A program made the translations under genes and the position numbers. This document shows, in pieces, positions 3,974 to 13,659 of a stretch of 13,926 nucleotides of DNA (positions are counted from its first letter, which is position 1; the number at the start of each line of letters is the position of its first letter). The stretch is from Candidatus Hydrogenedentota bacterium (GTDB lineage: Bacteria > UBA8481 > J006): the NCBI GenBank assembly GCA_003697085.1, contig RFFU01000088.1, positions 1-13,926 on the forward strand. Reading direction: 5' to 3'. The notes below the pieces were generated by a model, which saw only the letters and a list, made by a program, of their open reading frames with translations, had not been told where the DNA came from and ran no database searches.

Positions 3974-4198
3974 TTAGTTTTGATCGATAAGTTCTTGGAC
4001 CGTCAGACCGATGTCCCGCGCAATCTTTCTGAGAAGTGTCGGTGAAATATCTCGGCTGGCATGAAACGGCACGGTGGTACTACGGCCATCGGAATGCCGA
4101 TATTGTTTATGGGAACCGCGCTGCCGTACTTCCACGAATCCAAGCCGCTCGAGAAAAGCAACCACCTCTCGCGGCTTGAGGACCGGGACGGAGCCCAC
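3974..4198 (-). CDS. hicA: HicA-family mRNA interferase toxin
   Basis: This 74-aa protein matches the HicA/YcfA toxin family, small ribosome-independent RNases with a double-stranded-RNA-binding-like fold. The family pattern is clear: PREVVAFLERLGF for the first helix, then RGSHKQYRH with the presumed catalytic His at residue 30, and TVPFH followed by the C-terminal helix SPTLLRKIARDIGLTVQELI. It lies two bases downstream of the hicB stop, and the start used here is a GTG (ending at 4198). AGGAG directly abuts that GTG, which is poor spacing, so translation probably depends on coupling to hicB, or the true start differs slightly. Antitoxin-first order (hicB then hicA) is a common arrangement. 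Confidence 0.88.
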   Translation of the reverse strand: MGSVPVLKPREVVAFLERLGFVEVRQRGSHKQYRHSDGRSTTVPFHASRDISPTLLRKIARDIGLTVQELIDQN

Positions 4199-4200
4199 TC

Positions 4201-4410
4201 CTATGCAACTTGAATTTGGCGGACGCCTAGGAACTCCGACTCCAACCGCGGTTCGCCATCTTCAAGTAACATTTCGATGACCTCGCGGAGATTACGTTGA
4301 AGCTCGTCAAGATCCGCCCCCTGCGTGTGGGCCCCCGGCCAACCGGGAACGTAACCAACCAACAAACCCGTACGGGGATCCCGTTCCACCACAAATTCAA
4401 ATGTACGCAT
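4201..4410 (-). CDS. hicB: HicB-family antitoxin (short form)
   Basis: This 69-aa protein has the partly degraded RNase H fold typical of HicB: an N-terminal strand MRTFEFVVERD, then GLLVGYVPGWPGAHTQGADLDELQRNL and a helix REVIEMLLEDGE. It is the short form that lacks a C-terminal helix-turn-helix or ribbon DNA-binding domain, so autoregulation by direct operator binding is less certain. The start at the ATG ending at 4410 is preceded by GGGAGGT about 9 bases upstream; an in-frame GTG two codons earlier is too close to that site. It should bind and neutralise HicA, encoded immediately downstream. The pair sits between the MITE-like element and ino1, as expected of an accessory module. Confidence 0.88.
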   Translation of the reverse strand: MRTFEFVVERDPRTGLLVGYVPGWPGAHTQGADLDELQRNLREVIEMLLEDGEPRLESEFLGVRQIQVA

Positions 4411-4766
4411 TGCCACGTTACCTCCCCGCAATAGGCCAAAATACGCCAATCTTCCGATCAGTTCTCAACCGACCCCACCGGATGCCATTTGAGCACTCAT
4501 TCGAGAACGCAGGAGGCACTTCCACAACAAGCGGCCGGGTAATCGGTAACACCATTCGCCGGCCGCGCCGTACCCCGCAATCTCATTCTTCTTCTCCATC
4601 TCCCTTTACTCGAACGATGTATTTGAATCTTTTAATCACAACGTTTCGTGTTCCGTCAAGCGAAAACCAGGAGGCCCGCCACGGCAACGGGAGCGGCCCG
4701 CCGGTTGCCTCTCTTCATCGGGAATTCCTCCTCGTCCCGGTCGGCGCTTGGAGTGACGGGGAGAGA
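4411..4766. other. Intergenic region between ino1 and hicBA
   Basis: This 356-base region has no credible gene. It must hold the hicBA promoter on the minus strand. Two weak candidates are visible: TTGACG (4659-4654) with TTAAAA 18 bases on, and TTGAGA with TATTTT 19 bases on nearer to hicB. GGCAAC (4683-4688) and GTTGCC (4704-4709) can form a hairpin past the end of ino1, but no U-run follows directly on the minus strand. No operator palindrome could be assigned with confidence. Confidence 0.35.
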
Positions 4767-7714: not shown

Positions 7715-9310
7715 ATGTCCGGGCTTCGCATTCGTGATCGTTCCTTCGGTTACACAGCGGTCCGTCACGCGGGCGGATTCCAGCGAAAAGTCCTTGAAAG
7801 TTCCCGCAAAATGGCGTCGGGCCAGCGTATCAACTCGGCCGGGGATGATGCGGCAGGCTTGGCCATCTCGGATAAGATTCGCCAACAACGAAACGGTCTG
7901 AATCGAGCGGAAAAGAACGCGCAGGACGCCGTCTCGCTCATCCAAACCGCCGAGTCAGGTATTCGAAAATTGAACGACATCGTCCAAAGATTGAAGACAT
8001 TGGCGGTCCAATCCGCGAGCGATACGCTCACCGACGCCGATCGCTCGCTCGTCCAGAAACAGGCTTCGGAATTGATCGCCGAATACCAAAGAATAACGAC
8101 CTCGACCACCTTCAACGGGCAGAGTCTTCTCGACAGTCCTCTTGTCTCCACCTCTAATGCCGCGGTGGCCGCGGCCTCCACCGGCTCGGCGCTTGGTTTC
8201 CCCTGGGCGGAACTCAAGAACGCCATCGATGCCCTTTCTACGGGCGTTGATCAGACCGTCGATTTCACCGTCTCCTTCATTACCCCTCCCGGCTCGACCG
8301 AGGATGGCGCAATAACGACGGCCCAGGATCAAACGGATTCCAATCCTGCTACCTCCGCCTTTCAGGCGGACGTCATGAGCGCCTTCAACGAATGGAAGCG
8401 GCTTTTCGAACGGATCTATTCGCGAGCCAACGGCGCCAAGGCCAATCTCACTATCAATTTCACCAACCTCGGCGCCGAAAAACCCAACTCCGTCCCATCC
8501 GATCCGGCCGAGCCGAGTTACACTCTTCCTCATCCCGACGGGATCGGCGATTTCCGCGTCACTGTCGTTCCTCTCGATGGAATCGGCGGAACACTGGCTC
8601 ACGGGTTTTCCCCTTCCGGCACGCCGGGGAGTCTGGGAAACGTCGGAGGCGATATTCATTTCGACTCCGCCGAGAATTTCCGCGTCGAGGGGAACGCCGC
8701 TTCCGGAGACTTCAGCGTCAAGCACATCGCGGTTCACGAGATCGGACACGCATTGGGCCTGGGCCACGACACTTCCAACTCCGCCATTATGTTTCCCTTG
8801 ATCGGCGCCGGCGTCGATTTCGCGGACCGGTTTCCCAACGGCTTGCCGATCGATGGAAGCGATGCCGGAAGCATTATGAACGTGTACGGGGTTCCCGGGG
8901 AGGCCGCGGCGGAAGGACGGCGTTTCCACGTCGGAGCCAATCAGGACGAAACAATCTTGCTTGCCCCGATCAATGTTACCGCCTCACAAGTCGGCCTCTC
9001 TTCGATCGACCTCACCACCCGCAACGCCGCCGAGAAGGCTTTGACCACAGTCAACGACGTCGTCGATAGATTGACGGCGAAGGCGGCTGAGCTAGGAGCA
9101 GAACAGAATCGCTTCGAAAAGACGATCGATTTCGTGAAGGTCTCGGAGGAAAACTCAGCCAGCGCTGAATCCCAGATCCGCGACCTCGATTTCGCGAACG
9201 AAACAACGAATCTCGCACGAAACCAGATTCTGGCGCAATCCTCGTCGTCCGTTGTCTCTCAAGCCAACCTCCTGCAGTCGAATATGCTCCAGCTCCTCGG
9301 GCTCGCCTGA
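7715..9310 (+). CDS. Flagellin with inserted matrixin-type zinc metalloprotease domain
   Basis: The 531-aa product is a flagellin whose surface-exposed variable region is a peptidase. Residues 1-145 form N-terminal D0/D1: a divergent first 35 residues that align without gaps to ordinary flagellins, then SGQRINSAGDDAAGLAIS, AQDAVSLIQTAE and FNGQSLLD. Residues from about 404 (FHVGANQDETI) to 531 form C-terminal D1/D0, with ELGAEQNRFEKTI, IRDLDFA, NQILAQ and a final LLGLA. Between them, about 180-393, lies a matrixin catalytic domain: GGTLAHGFSP with His296 and GDIHFD with His315 (structural-zinc positions), HEIGHALGLGHD with His341, Glu342, His345 and His351 (catalytic zinc), the Met-turn SAIMFP with Met359, and SIMNVYG as the closing helix. 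There are no cysteines, so no cysteine-switch propeptide. AAGGGAG lies about 12 bases before the ATG. No other flagellar gene is nearby. Confidence 0.95.
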   Translation: MSGLRIRDRSFGYTAVRHAGGFQRKVLESSRKMASGQRINSAGDDAAGLAISDKIRQQRNGLNRAEKNAQDAVSLIQTAESGIRKLNDIVQRLKTLAVQSASDTLTDADRSLVQKQASELIAEYQRITTSTTFNGQSLLDSPLVSTSNAAVAAASTGSALGFPWAELKNAIDALSTGVDQTVDFTVSFITPPGSTEDGAITTAQDQTDSNPATSAFQADVMSAFNEWKRLFERIYSRANGAKANLTINFTNLGAEKPNSVPSDPAEPSYTLPHPDGIGDFRVTVVPLDGIGGTLAHGFSPSGTPGSLGNVGGDIHFDSAENFRVEGNAASGDFSVKHIAVHEIGHALGLGHDTSNSAIMFPLIGAGVDFADRFPNGLPIDGSDAGSIMNVYGVPGEAAAEGRRFHVGANQDETILLAPINVTASQVGLSSIDLTTRNAAEKALTTVNDVVDRLTAKAAELGAEQNRFEKTIDFVKVSEENSASAESQIRDLDFANETTNLARNQILAQSSSSVVSQANLLQSNMLQLLGLA

Positions 9311-9671: not shown

Positions 9672-10808
9672 ATGGAGGAGATTCCGTTTGCCAGACCGTG
9701 CTTGAGCGAGGAGGAGGTTGCCGCGGTCACTGAAGTGCTCCTCTCGGGTTGGATCACGACAGGGCGCGAGACGAAGGCGTTCGAGAAGGAATTCAGCCGG
9801 TACATCGGCGAAGGCATCGCCGTGGCCGTTTCCAGCGGTACCGCGGCGCTTTTTCTGGCGTTGTTTTTGGCCGAGATCGGGCCGGGCGACGAGGTCATCG
9901 TTCCTCCATTGACATTTACAGCCACGGCCAATGTTGTCGAGCACCGTGGCGCCACGGTGCGCTTCGCAGACGTCGATCTCGAAACCGGCCTCCTCGATCC
10001 CGCTGCCGCGCGCGCGGCTCATACAGAGCGCACCCGCGCTCTCATCACCGTTCCCCTTCACGGCCGCGCGGCCTTTCTGGAAGAATATGCTTCCTTTGCG
10101 CGCGAAAAGAACCTCTTTCATCTCACCGATTGCGCCCACGCGATCGAAACGCGCGTCAACGGCCGGCATCCCGTCTCACAAGCGGATATGGCGGCCTTCT
10201 CCTTCTACGCCACCAAGAACCTCACCACGGGAGAAGGCGGCATGTTGGTCGTCAAGGACCAGGACCTCGCGGCGAAAGCCTCCATCGCCGCATTGCACGG
10301 CATGGATCGCGACGCCTATCGCCGCTACGAGGCCGACGGGACGCCCTTCTACGACGTCTTGCTGCCCGGATATAAATTCAACCTAACCAACATTGCCGCC
10401 GCGCTCGGTCGCAAACAACTCGCGCTCCTTCCAAAACACCTGCGACGGCGCGAGGAGATTTGGCGACGGTACAACGAGGCGTTCGCTGACCTTCCCGTTA
10501 CCCTTCCTCCTGAACCACCACCCGGTGACATCCACGCGCGCCATATCTATGCGCTTCGCGCCGAAAATCGCGCGGAGCGGGACCGACTGCTGGCCGAACT
10601 GCGCCGCCGGGGCATCGGCACCGCGGTTCATTTTCGCCCCGTCCACCTCTTCTCGTATTACCGCAAAAAGTATGGGTATTCCGCCGGAGATTTTCCGAAC
10701 GCGGAGGCGATCGGTGATACGACGTTCTCCCTGCCGATGACGCCCTATCTGACCGATGCCGATGTCGAACGGGTTACCGAAGCCCTCCGGGCTGCTTTCG
10801 GCAAGTGA
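9672..10808 (+). CDS. DegT/DnrJ/EryC1/StrS-family (ArnB/PseC-like) nucleotide-sugar aminotransferase
   Basis: The 378-aa PLP enzyme belongs to the family that transfers an amino group from an amino acid, usually glutamate, to a keto-sugar nucleotide. Visible features are the substrate loop GWITTGRET near residues 26-34, VSSGTAALFLAL for cofactor phosphate binding (about 53-64), the PLP-ring Asp153 in LTDCAHAIE, and the Schiff-base Lys182 in SFYATKNLTTGEGGM. The C-terminal part shows GIGTAVHFRPVHLFSYY and FPNAEAI. Overall style is closest to ArnB/PseC-type proteins, but the exact sugar cannot be read from sequence. The GGAGGAG just after the ATG cannot serve this start, and nothing upstream resembles a ribosome site, consistent with a leaderless message. 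Its TGA overlaps the next start by four bases, making it the first gene of a three-gene operon. Confidence 0.92.
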   Translation: MEEIPFARPCLSEEEVAAVTEVLLSGWITTGRETKAFEKEFSRYIGEGIAVAVSSGTAALFLALFLAEIGPGDEVIVPPLTFTATANVVEHRGATVRFADVDLETGLLDPAAARAAHTERTRALITVPLHGRAAFLEEYASFAREKNLFHLTDCAHAIETRVNGRHPVSQADMAAFSFYATKNLTTGEGGMLVVKDQDLAAKASIAALHGMDRDAYRRYEADGTPFYDVLLPGYKFNLTNIAAALGRKQLALLPKHLRRREEIWRRYNEAFADLPVTLPPEPPPGDIHARHIYALRAENRAERDRLLAELRRRGIGTAVHFRPVHLFSYYRKKYGYSAGDFPNAEAIGDTTFSLPMTPYLTDADVERVTEALRAAFGK

Positions 10809-11890
10809 ACGCGGACCTCGCTCAACCCCCCCTCCGAAAAAAACAAAAACTCTATACCGTTCGTTTCGAGATTCCGTGGCCCTGGAAGATCATCTTCGCC
10901 GCACTGGCCGCCGCAATTCTTCTCCTCTTCCAAACCCCCGCGCTTCAGCGAAGATTCCTCGATACCCTCTCCCCCGTTCTCGATCCCGTCCTCCTCCGAA
11001 TCCGTCTTCACCGTTTCGAACGCATCACCGGGATTCGAGGTTTTTCGGAACTTCCCGACAACGGATTTCTTGTCGCCACCGGATACCGCGTCTATTACCT
11101 CCGCCCGTCCAGCGAAATTCCGACCGAATACCGTATCGTTTACGACTACAAGACCTACAAGGAACACTTCGAGGGAAAGCCTCCTTCGATCTCCACCGCC
11201 TCCTTTCCGTCGGAGAACCACTTCCTTCTCGGAACCTGGCGCGGGCGAATCCTTCAATATCGAAACGGGCGATGGTCCTCGACCTCGCTGACACAGGAGA
11301 AGGGACGCCGCGTGGTCGGTTTGGCCCTCGATGGAGAAAGCATAATTTGCGCGGGATACGACGGCGTTTTTTCGATCCCGTTCGATGGAATCGTTCATCG
11401 CGCGTCGGAGCCGCGCTCCGCCGAGGGACTGGCTCGGGCGCCGGACGGAACCTTCTGGTGTTGGAATTATCGCACACTCTACCGGCGCGAAGGGACCGGA
11501 CCCGACGCTCGATGGGTCCCTGTCTGGACGCTTCCGAGCCAGGCGGTCGCGATTGAGTCGCTCGCTTTTTCGAAAAATGAGATATTTGTTGGAACCAAGA
11601 AATCGGGGATCCTTCGGCTCGATTCCCGATACCGTATCCTCGGAAAGGAGTTGCCCGGAATCTGGATCAACGCGATCGCCGTGGAATCGAAAACGGGTAC
11701 GATCGCGGCCGGAGCGTGGAACCGAGACGGCCTCTTTGTCAAGAGAGGAACACGCTGGAAGCAGTATCGCCCGGTTCTGGGCCTTCCGCTCAAGGACATC
11801 TTCACGCTCTTCATCGACGATTCCGGCCGGCTCTGGATCGGCCCGTACGGAGGAAGTTTGATGGTGATCGCTCTGGAGGATTTGCCGTGA
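10805..11890 (+). CDS. Membrane-anchored protein with propeller-like repeats, function unknown
   Basis: This 361-aa protein starts at a GTG within a GTGA overlap with the aminotransferase stop, implying coupled translation; no good Shine-Dalgarno is seen. A basic N-terminus (RKKQK) and a hydrophobic segment at about 28-44 indicate one membrane span, with the rest probably outside the cytoplasm. That remainder holds about seven short repeats of the form 'G-x-hydrophobic-h-h-G-x-x-x-G-h-h-h', near residues 87-98, 138-152, 179-192, 216-228, 259-272, 298-312 and 341-354 (for example LLGTWRGRILQY and LWIGPYGGSLMVI). They resemble the Reg_prop/ligand-binding blades of beta-propeller sensors, and seven blades would close a propeller. 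No enzyme motif is seen. It could be a sensor or a scaffold. Confidence 0.75.
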   Translation: MNADLAQPPLRKKQKLYTVRFEIPWPWKIIFAALAAAILLLFQTPALQRRFLDTLSPVLDPVLLRIRLHRFERITGIRGFSELPDNGFLVATGYRVYYLRPSSEIPTEYRIVYDYKTYKEHFEGKPPSISTASFPSENHFLLGTWRGRILQYRNGRWSSTSLTQEKGRRVVGLALDGESIICAGYDGVFSIPFDGIVHRASEPRSAEGLARAPDGTFWCWNYRTLYRREGTGPDARWVPVWTLPSQAVAIESLAFSKNEIFVGTKKSGILRLDSRYRILGKELPGIWINAIAVESKTGTIAAGAWNRDGLFVKRGTRWKQYRPVLGLPLKDIFTLFIDDSGRLWIGPYGGSLMVIALEDLP

Positions 11891-13659
11891 AAAGCAGAAA
11901 ACGAAATTCTTCCAACGCGCGCCGAGGCTCGAAGGCGTTTTTCATCCTCTTCTTCTCCCTCTTCTTCCTGGTCGGAATCGCGATGTGCGCGTTCGGACTC
12001 CACCGGGCCTATCAAGCCCACCTCTCCCAATCCTGGCCCTCGACAAACGGAATCGTCACGGAAAGCAAGGTCGTCATCCATCACTCGACGGGAAAGAATT
12101 CCTCGACGACCTACGGCGCGGAAATCTCATATGTGTACTCTGTCTCCGGCCGGCGGTATCGCGGATCACGGGTACGGGTGATTGACGTGAGCACCAGCAA
12201 CCCCTCTTATGCGCAAGGAATCGTCAACCGGTATCCGAAGGGGAAAAGAGTGCGGGTTCATTACGATCCGAAGAATCCGGCTTTCGCCGTTCTGGAACCC
12301 GGTTTTTCTCTCTCCTTGCTCTTTCCCCTCCTCCTCGGCGTTATTCTCCTCATTGCGACCGTCATCTTTCTCTTTCTGATGATTCGCCGTGGCGGATCCG
12401 CGGGACAGCACGTCCGCGGCGGCGACGCGCTGTCGAATCTCGAGACGACCGGAGCCGAATTCGGGATTGGCGGCGGTGAAATTCGATGCTCGACCGGAAA
12501 GGATGCACGCTTCTTCTGGTTCTTCGCCGTCTTCTGGAACCTCGTCGCCTCGCTCCCGCTTCTTCTTCGAGGAATCCCGGACGCCTGGCACAACGGCGAT
12601 TATGGGACGGTCACCTTGATGTCTTTCTTTCCCTTGGTCGGAATCATCGTTCTTGTCGTCGCGATCCGTCTCACCGTCCAAGCCCGCAAATTCGGTATCT
12701 CCACCTTCCGTTTCTCTCCTCTTCCCGTCCCGCTGGGAAGTCGATTCCGAGGGGAAATCACCGTCGAACGCGGCGGTACCTTCCTGACCTCCGACGTTCT
12801 GCTCTCGTGGTCCTGTGTCCACATCTATGTCACCGGAACCGGGAAAAATCGTTCGACACATTACGATCTGAAGTGGAACCTGGAACAGACGGTTCCGCAG
12901 GGCGAAGTGAGAATTTTGGGCCCGGCAGCCGTCATCCCCGTGGACCTCCCTGTTCCCTGTGATCGTCCCGAAACCGATGAATCGAATCCGGCCAACAGGA
13001 TCGTCTGGATGTTGACGGCCTCAGCATCAATCCCCGGAATCGATTACGAGGCGACCTTCGAGGTTCCCGTAAAGTCCACGGATCGAACCGATCCCGCCCT
13101 GACCTCGGATTCGATCGAACAAGAGGTCGCCGCAAGCCTCCAGGAGGTTGACTTATCCGCGCTCTCTCCGGCCCGCTTCAACGAAACTCCCGACGCAATG
13201 GAATTATTCCTTCCTCCGTTTCGAATTCTGACCGCCTCCTTGGTTTTGATCGTCGTGTTCTTGATATTTGGAGGAATCGCTTATGGTTTGGCCTCCCACG
13301 AAGCCCCCTTCTTCGTCCTCGGGATTTTCGGCGTTATCCTCTTCTTCCTCGGGCTCTTCATCCTCCACACACTCCTGAGTCAAACATGGCTGCGCATCGA
13401 GCGCACGGGTACCGTTCTTCTCAAGAAGAGTTGGCTCGGGATCGGCTTCGTCTGGACGTTTCCCACCGAGGTCGTGGAAAAGGTTCACACGACGATCGAA
13501 TCGAGCAGCCTCGGAGCCGGTGGTCGAGCGACGGCGTATTACGGTCTGGCGATCATCCTCCGCGATGGCACGAAATTCCGAACTGGTCTCATCACCCACC
13601 GCCAGCGTCTCCTTCACGCACTGGCGAAACGCCTGAGGAAAGCAGCCGGAAAAGAATAA
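11887..13659 (+). CDS. Multi-pass membrane protein with DUF3592-like and arrestin-like regions
   Basis: The 590-aa product begins at a GTG in a second GTGA overlap, with GGAGGA seven bases upstream; this start is preferred over an open frame extending back to 11716 inside the previous gene. Predicted membrane spans lie at about 17-38, 141-165, 208-229, 243-262, 444-467 and 474-494. The loop between spans 1 and 2 looks like DUF3592: SWPSTNGIV, then a paired-strand SYVYSVSGRRYRGSRV and RVRVHYDPKNP. The segment at about 275-396 (PLGSRFRGEITVERGG, then SIPGIDYEATFEVPV) resembles an arrestin-like beta-sandwich. A C-terminal domain with FPTEVVEKV and IILRDGTKF follows. Such proteins are usually uncharacterised. 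Its close linkage to the propeller protein suggests the two work together at the membrane. Confidence 0.78.
   Translation: MKSRKRNSSNARRGSKAFFILFFSLFFLVGIAMCAFGLHRAYQAHLSQSWPSTNGIVTESKVVIHHSTGKNSSTTYGAEISYVYSVSGRRYRGSRVRVIDVSTSNPSYAQGIVNRYPKGKRVRVHYDPKNPAFAVLEPGFSLSLLFPLLLGVILLIATVIFLFLMIRRGGSAGQHVRGGDALSNLETTGAEFGIGGGEIRCSTGKDARFFWFFAVFWNLVASLPLLLRGIPDAWHNGDYGTVTLMSFFPLVGIIVLVVAIRLTVQARKFGISTFRFSPLPVPLGSRFRGEITVERGGTFLTSDVLLSWSCVHIYVTGTGKNRSTHYDLKWNLEQTVPQGEVRILGPAAVIPVDLPVPCDRPETDESNPANRIVWMLTASASIPGIDYEATFEVPVKSTDRTDPALTSDSIEQEVAASLQEVDLSALSPARFNETPDAMELFLPPFRILTASLVLIVVFLIFGGIAYGLASHEAPFFVLGIFGVILFFLGLFILHTLLSQTWLRIERTGTVLLKKSWLGIGFVWTFPTEVVEKVHTTIESSSLGAGGRATAYYGLAIILRDGTKFRTGLITHRQRLLHALAKRLRKAAGKE

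Follow-up and report, generated by a model that had tools for sequence, protein, structure and literature searches.

We describe a flagellin that carries a matrixin catalytic domain in a loop of its D1 region and that is encoded within the window, by which we mean the whole stretch of DNA analysed (13,926 nt). We think it likely that the protein is an enzymatic flagellin, incorporated as a minor subunit of the filament, whose matrixin domain was probably drawn from a pool present in phage tail-fibre-like proteins. A preliminary description of this DNA had read the same forward-strand open reading frame as a flagellin with a metalloprotease in its surface domain, and the frame and every motif named there are present at the same residues (Table 1).

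Table 1. Position of the matrixin flagellin gene and its parts in the window, and phage-borne carriers of related matrixin domains. Residue numbers refer to the 531-aa protein.
Feature	Location	Strand	Details
Possible sigma-28-type promoter, TAGAAGAA-N13-GCCGATAA	7613..7641	+	81 nt before the ATG; -10 exact, -35 with one mismatch
CDS, flagellin with matrixin insert	7715..9310	+	531 aa; Pfam Flagellin_N, Peptidase_M10 and Flagellin_C
N-terminal flagellin region D0/D1 (residues 23-140)	7781..8134	+	Flagellin_N, E 4.8e-30
Matrixin catalytic domain (residues ~160-394)	8192..8896	+	Peptidase_M10, AlphaFold2 model, MT1-MMP structural match
His296 in GTLAHGF (LAHGF at 294)	8600..8602	+	Aligns with the MMP-14 LAH histidine (structural zinc site); invariant in the subfamily
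His315-Phe-Asp317 (GDIHFD at 312)	8657..8665	+	Aligns with MMP-14 GDTHFD (structural zinc/calcium); His315 invariant in the subfamily
Zinc-binding helix motif HEIGHALGLGHD (341-352): His341, Glu342, His345, His351	8735..8770	+	Invariant, 27 of 27 alignment rows
Met-turn methionine Met359 (SAIMFP, 356-361)	8789..8791	+	From sequence; nearly invariant in the 27-row alignment
C-terminal flagellin region (residues 444-528)	9044..9298	+	Flagellin_C, E 3.3e-20
L247	IMG/VR contig		Collagen repeats and M10, between collagen-repeat tail fibres
L272	IMG/VR contig		1,615 aa; M10 with collagen repeats; parts of the protein match virion-protein PHROGs
L250 (with L270)	IMG/VR contig		3,157 aa; M10 in a tail-fibre/virion-like protein
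L258, L262, L275	IMG/VR contigs		Matrixin behind a vWA-like part (by eye from the sequence, no Pfam match)

A flagellin with a matrixin domain

Both flagellin profiles lie above their curated Pfam cut-offs, Flagellin_N with 104.9 bits (cut-off 26.6) and Flagellin_C with 72.7 bits (cut-off 23), by which the protein qualifies as a bacterial flagellin, and all of its best Foldseek matches are flagellar filaments. Between the two, Peptidase_M10 matches residues 285-364 (E 1e-22; 81 bits, cut-off 24); a chance motif was rejected, as the Pfam scores for this order of domains far exceed chance. In a full-length AlphaFold2 model, where the insert itself is poor owing to a thin alignment, both D0/D1 halves are kept and are predicted to form a single long helix bundle, as in filament flagellins, with pLDDT >90 across most of residues 70-130. 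D0 residues 1-28 diverge from the usual flagellin start, the Flagellin_N match beginning only at residue 23, and D1 resumes at FHVGANQ (residue 404), ahead of the Flagellin_C match; a low-confidence linker (~141-159) precedes the matrixin domain. That D0/D1 regions bracket the insert, as proposed earlier, holds, but the domain is somewhat larger than the size then given to it, about 210 residues. The Pfam match to Peptidase_M10 is confined to the C-terminal half of the fold, and the limits of the whole domain in Table 1 come from structure and subfamily alignment.

The insert is assigned to the matrixins (PF00413/M10A) by its HExxHxxGxxH zinc motif at residues 341-351 and, from sequence and model together, by the Met-turn and the MMP catalytic fold. 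Its best sequence match in the PDB is MMP-14 (1.5e-13), and karilysin (4e-11), matrilysin and other MMPs are also matched; the MMP-14 alignment covers LAHxF, GGDxHFDSAE, the zinc helix and the Met-turn, and aligns His296 and His315 with the structural zinc site, whose two upstream ligands lie outside that alignment. All seven residues that are invariant in a 27-row alignment (W, H, E, G, H, G, H) are intact in the insert, and the catalytic, zinc and Met-turn residues are all retained although the relatives are only ~40% identical.

A separate AlphaFold2 model of the insert (residues 140-416), built from an alignment of 27 natural relatives, has a mean pLDDT of 80 and a pTM of 0.81, and Foldseek pairs it best with the catalytic domains of MMPs and with karilysin (E ~1e-9). 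VIA structural matches to MMPs and karilysin reach Z 16-17.3 over ~150-164 residues, with 26-34% structural identity and, for most rows, 2.3-2.8 Å; the match to MT1-MMP (Z 17.3, rmsd 2.7, 164 aligned) recovers the full MMP fold. The model thus predicts a complete matrixin (M10A-like) catalytic fold, in which the three zinc histidines would converge, judging from the alignment to MMP structures. The earlier reading of the insert as a matrixin-type metzincin is in this way borne out by Pfam, by the PDB sequence matches and by a confident structure model.

With matrixins and MMPs such as MT1-MMP and karilysin, the insert shares the fold, the zinc helix, the Met-turn and the closing helix (SIMNVYG, residues 386-392), as well as the LAH and GDxHFD histidines. 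In contrast to MMPs, it has no separate secretion form, cysteine-switch prodomain or hemopexin domain but is embedded in a flagellin; its strands two and three are separated by a long additional stretch (~250-280), and the loop that follows the Met-turn is longer. The cysteine-switch prodomain is a feature of vertebrate MMPs that is not universal among bacterial members. Here, as had been recognised, such a switch is impossible, the 531-aa protein having no cysteine at all; other latency devices are compatible with this.

The insertion loop and comparison with flagellinolysin

The matrixin sits in D1 between FNGQSLLDS and RRFHVGAN, a place occupied in the host's ordinary flagellins by only ~10-16 residues, and the insertion point is exact against sibling and relative flagellins. 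In the flagellinolysin used as a reference for the site (L075, 238 bits to the NF033876 model), the peptidase lies between FNNIKLLQG and NFQVGAN, which is the same loop, and three further flagellins have non-peptidase inserts there (L078, L080 and L025). Judged from these alignments, the D1 loop is an insertion hot spot, taken here by a different class of metallopeptidase, and, since two unrelated proteases occupy the same flagellin loop, the matrixin and the flagellinolysin represent convergent use of one site. The reference locus itself (L075:1153-4200, G270:C334) is an open frame of 1,175 aa in which two flagellins are fused head to tail, the flagellinolysin first and behind it the start of another flagellin bearing an insert of TolB-like repeats.

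Flagellinolysins (M101, NF033876), such as FliA(H) of C. haemolyticum and HgrFlaMP of H. gracilis, likewise carry a metalloprotease in the central variable region and are expected, as is the matrixin flagellin, to display it on the filament. They are, however, gluzincins with HExxH and a distal Glu (PMC5595980) and constitute the separate MEROPS family M101 (PMC7643111), whereas the third ligand position here is His351 in the HExxHxxGxxH of a metzincin of MMP fold. That the protein is nonetheless a divergent flagellinolysin, and hence already known, would fit an architecture and an insertion loop that are exactly those of the reference, but we hold it to be extremely improbable, as the NF033876 model reaches 45.2 bits against a cut-off of 205, with its best stretch at residues 397-458, in the flagellin part, and as the gluzincin motif of M101 is confronted here by HExxHxxGxxH, a Met-turn and an MMP fold. 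Membership in the flagellinolysins was rejected on score, motif and fold, in agreement with the earlier suspicion that a different metallopeptidase class was present, and the profile search proposed at the time assigns the insert to Peptidase_M10. The protein is distinct from flagellinolysin, a putatively proteolytic flagellin with an unrelated protease, and the independent domain acquisition that had been suggested draws support from the difference in class and from the phage-borne closest relatives.

Other enzyme or binding domains in flagellin variable regions, namely Peptidase_M26, sialidase and vWA, appear in Table 1 of the 2017 survey (Eckhard et al., 2017; PMC5595980); these belong to families other than M10, which is not among the ten commonest flagellin domains of that table. 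No paper pairing a flagellin with a matrixin insert was found among the main texts of the open-access articles searched. Two diverged flagellinolysin-like flagellins were also collected, L076 (G120:C138) and L079 (G151:C33), with HEMTH/HEMVH motifs and 86 and 61 bits to NF033876 (cut-off 205), and these probably form a branch of the M101 type that has yet to be described.

Relatives, host genome and distribution

The closest relatives of the insert that we found are three phage matrixin domains, those of L247, L272 and L250, with 37-42% identity over ~240 residues. Phage relatives were recovered from 2.9 million viral contigs by degenerate HExGHxxG patterns, a scan of viral contigs with single-sequence patterns having given no match, and no relative of this phage subfamily was found among 50,697 GenBank phage records. 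The insert and the phage domains alike begin with G-x-PW-x-EL and contain GNVGGDxHFDS and, ahead of GDFR, the extra segment. In a tree of 42 matrixin domains, the insert and six phage domains form a clade (99/98) with no bacterial row inside, seven rows that group apart from all other matrixins as a phage tail-fibre subfamily. The carriers of its phage members (L247, L250/L270, L272, L258, L262 and L275) are virion or tail-fibre-like proteins with collagen repeats, LamG-like or vWA-like parts, in contrast to the flagellin described here, and the genes adjacent to L275 have matches among tail-spike and tail-fibre families. By these comparisons the insert is kin to phage tail-fibre matrixins. 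A phage origin and the direction of transfer are only likely, since sampling was uneven, the viral side comprising 2.9 million contigs and the bacterial side the 386 genomes covered by the profile search, and the phage kinship may partly reflect this.

In composition, the insert (GC 0.594, GC3 0.697) has the values of host genes, and GC and GC3 are uniform over the N-terminal part, the insert and the C-terminal part and match the flanking host genes, whereas the loci of the phage relatives have 42-47% GC. The insert is therefore probably an old, adapted acquisition, without any sign of a chimera.

The flagellin backbone is probably native to the host, as in sequence comparisons it groups, with weak support (85/86), with flagellins of the same genome and of G001, the only order-mate genome found. 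Flagellin_N matches nine loci of the host genome, of which two are FlgL-like, and FlgK- and FliD-like genes are also present; the genome encodes at least five ordinary flagellins, and its only Peptidase_M10 gene is the one described here. The protein start MSGLRIR is common to flagellins on contigs C2 and C13. On the latter, a paralogous flagellin of ~898 aa (934-aa open frame; L069:1319-4012), with an MSGLRIRD start, has two large inserts in which Pfam finds no domain, one close to the D1 loop used here and one following the VGAN-like hairpin.

The matrixin flagellin gene sits among housekeeping genes, outside any flagellar cluster, its neighbours encoding an asparagine synthase, an Mrp-type ATPase, HicA, a myo-inositol-phosphate synthase, a glyoxalase-II-like hydrolase and a DegT aminotransferase. 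The HicA toxin gene (PF07927, 1e-20; 3974-4449 of the window, strand -) is adjoined by a small HicB-like gene with no Pfam match, and a protein with weak propeller repeats (10805-11887) lies ahead of a membrane-protein gene with a DUF3592 domain (11887-13656, strand +). The possible promoter in Table 1 was located using the -10 box alone: GCCGATAA, which we take to be the sigma-28 -10 consensus, occurs once in the window, against 0.39 copies expected by chance anywhere in it. The flagellin gene on contig C52 has TAAAGATT...GCCGATAA upstream, the full TAAA...GCCGATAA form, and the strict pattern TAAA-N12-16-GCCGATAA matches only there and at one other place.

Sequence and profile searches for other flagellins with a matrixin insert, which the preliminary description had called for, gave none among 386 diverse genomes. 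The phylum to which G053 belongs (348 genomes) likewise yielded none, nor did small phyla, plasmids or GenBank phages, and a scan of 84,980 species with exact 8-residue query patterns, which diverged members could escape, returned ordinary flagellins only. With no orthologue bearing the insert found, the matrixin flagellin is known from one sequence in one fragmented MAG of 145 contigs.

Proposed function and alternative explanations

We propose that the gene would be expressed under flagellar (sigma-28-type) control and that its product would pass unfolded through the type III channel of the flagellum, co-polymerising as a minor subunit beside the ordinary flagellins of the cell. With its D0/D1 ends packed into the core of the filament, the protein would have its catalytic domain folded on the outside and pointing outward, with zinc bound by His341, His345 and His351 and Glu342 acting as general base, so that the surface-displayed matrixin may cleave proteins close to the cell. 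The domain was probably acquired from the pool in phage tail-fibre-like proteins and inserted at the loop used by other flagellins. As folding and zinc binding would occur only outside the cell, a cysteine switch would be unneeded, and latency may be ensured by unfolded export. Many copies along the filament had been envisaged earlier; a minor subunit is more likely, given the number of ordinary flagellin genes in the same genome.

The domain could instead be a structural or binding decoration, folded and adhesin-like or antigenic at the surface, with little or no proteolysis. Indeed, the same flagellin loop accepts non-enzymatic inserts (L078, L080, L025) and the 934-aa paralogue bears large inserts without a Pfam domain, but we regard a decoration as unlikely, as the catalytic, zinc and Met-turn residues are all kept despite a difference of ~60% from the relatives elsewhere, and in inactive copies the HExxH glutamate or a ligand is usually the first to disappear. 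In another reading, the main role of the flagellin ends would be to tag a secreted protease for type III export, be it a released monomer or a component of the tip or the hook junction. The divergent D0 start and the distance of the gene from flagellar clusters speak for this; it is improbable in our view, as both D0/D1 halves are kept in what is predicted to be a filament-like helix bundle, and an export tag would make the C-terminal half superfluous.

An artefact of assembly or binning, fusing a flagellin with a phage matrixin, has to be weighed as well, the gene lying on a single 13.9 kb MAG contig with no second copy seen. We consider it very improbable, as there is one open frame of uniform, host-like GC and GC3, set apart from the low GC of the phage loci, the junctions fall exactly at the known insertion loop, and the MSGLRIR start recurs in the flagellins on two other contigs; an assembly chimera is unlikely from composition and junctions.

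The characterised proteolytic flagella have so far involved one protease family only (M101). We see about an even chance that the putatively enzymatic flagellin described here stands for a second, independently evolved class of protease flagella, in which a native flagellin has received an MMP-type domain of phage tail fibres at the flagellinolysin loop, the module being exchangeable between phage appendages and filaments. If so, the conversion of a filament into an enzyme array would be a repeatable evolutionary step, and the D1 loop a port for insertions in general, of use in the engineering of enzymes for display. Through the kinship with phage domains, the exchange of modules between phage tail fibres and flagella becomes a concrete, testable hypothesis, and an enzyme of MMP fold without a cysteine-switch prodomain, borne on a polymer exported unfolded, would offer, in a poorly sampled lineage of bacteria, a natural test of export through a narrow channel as the sole means of metzincin latency.
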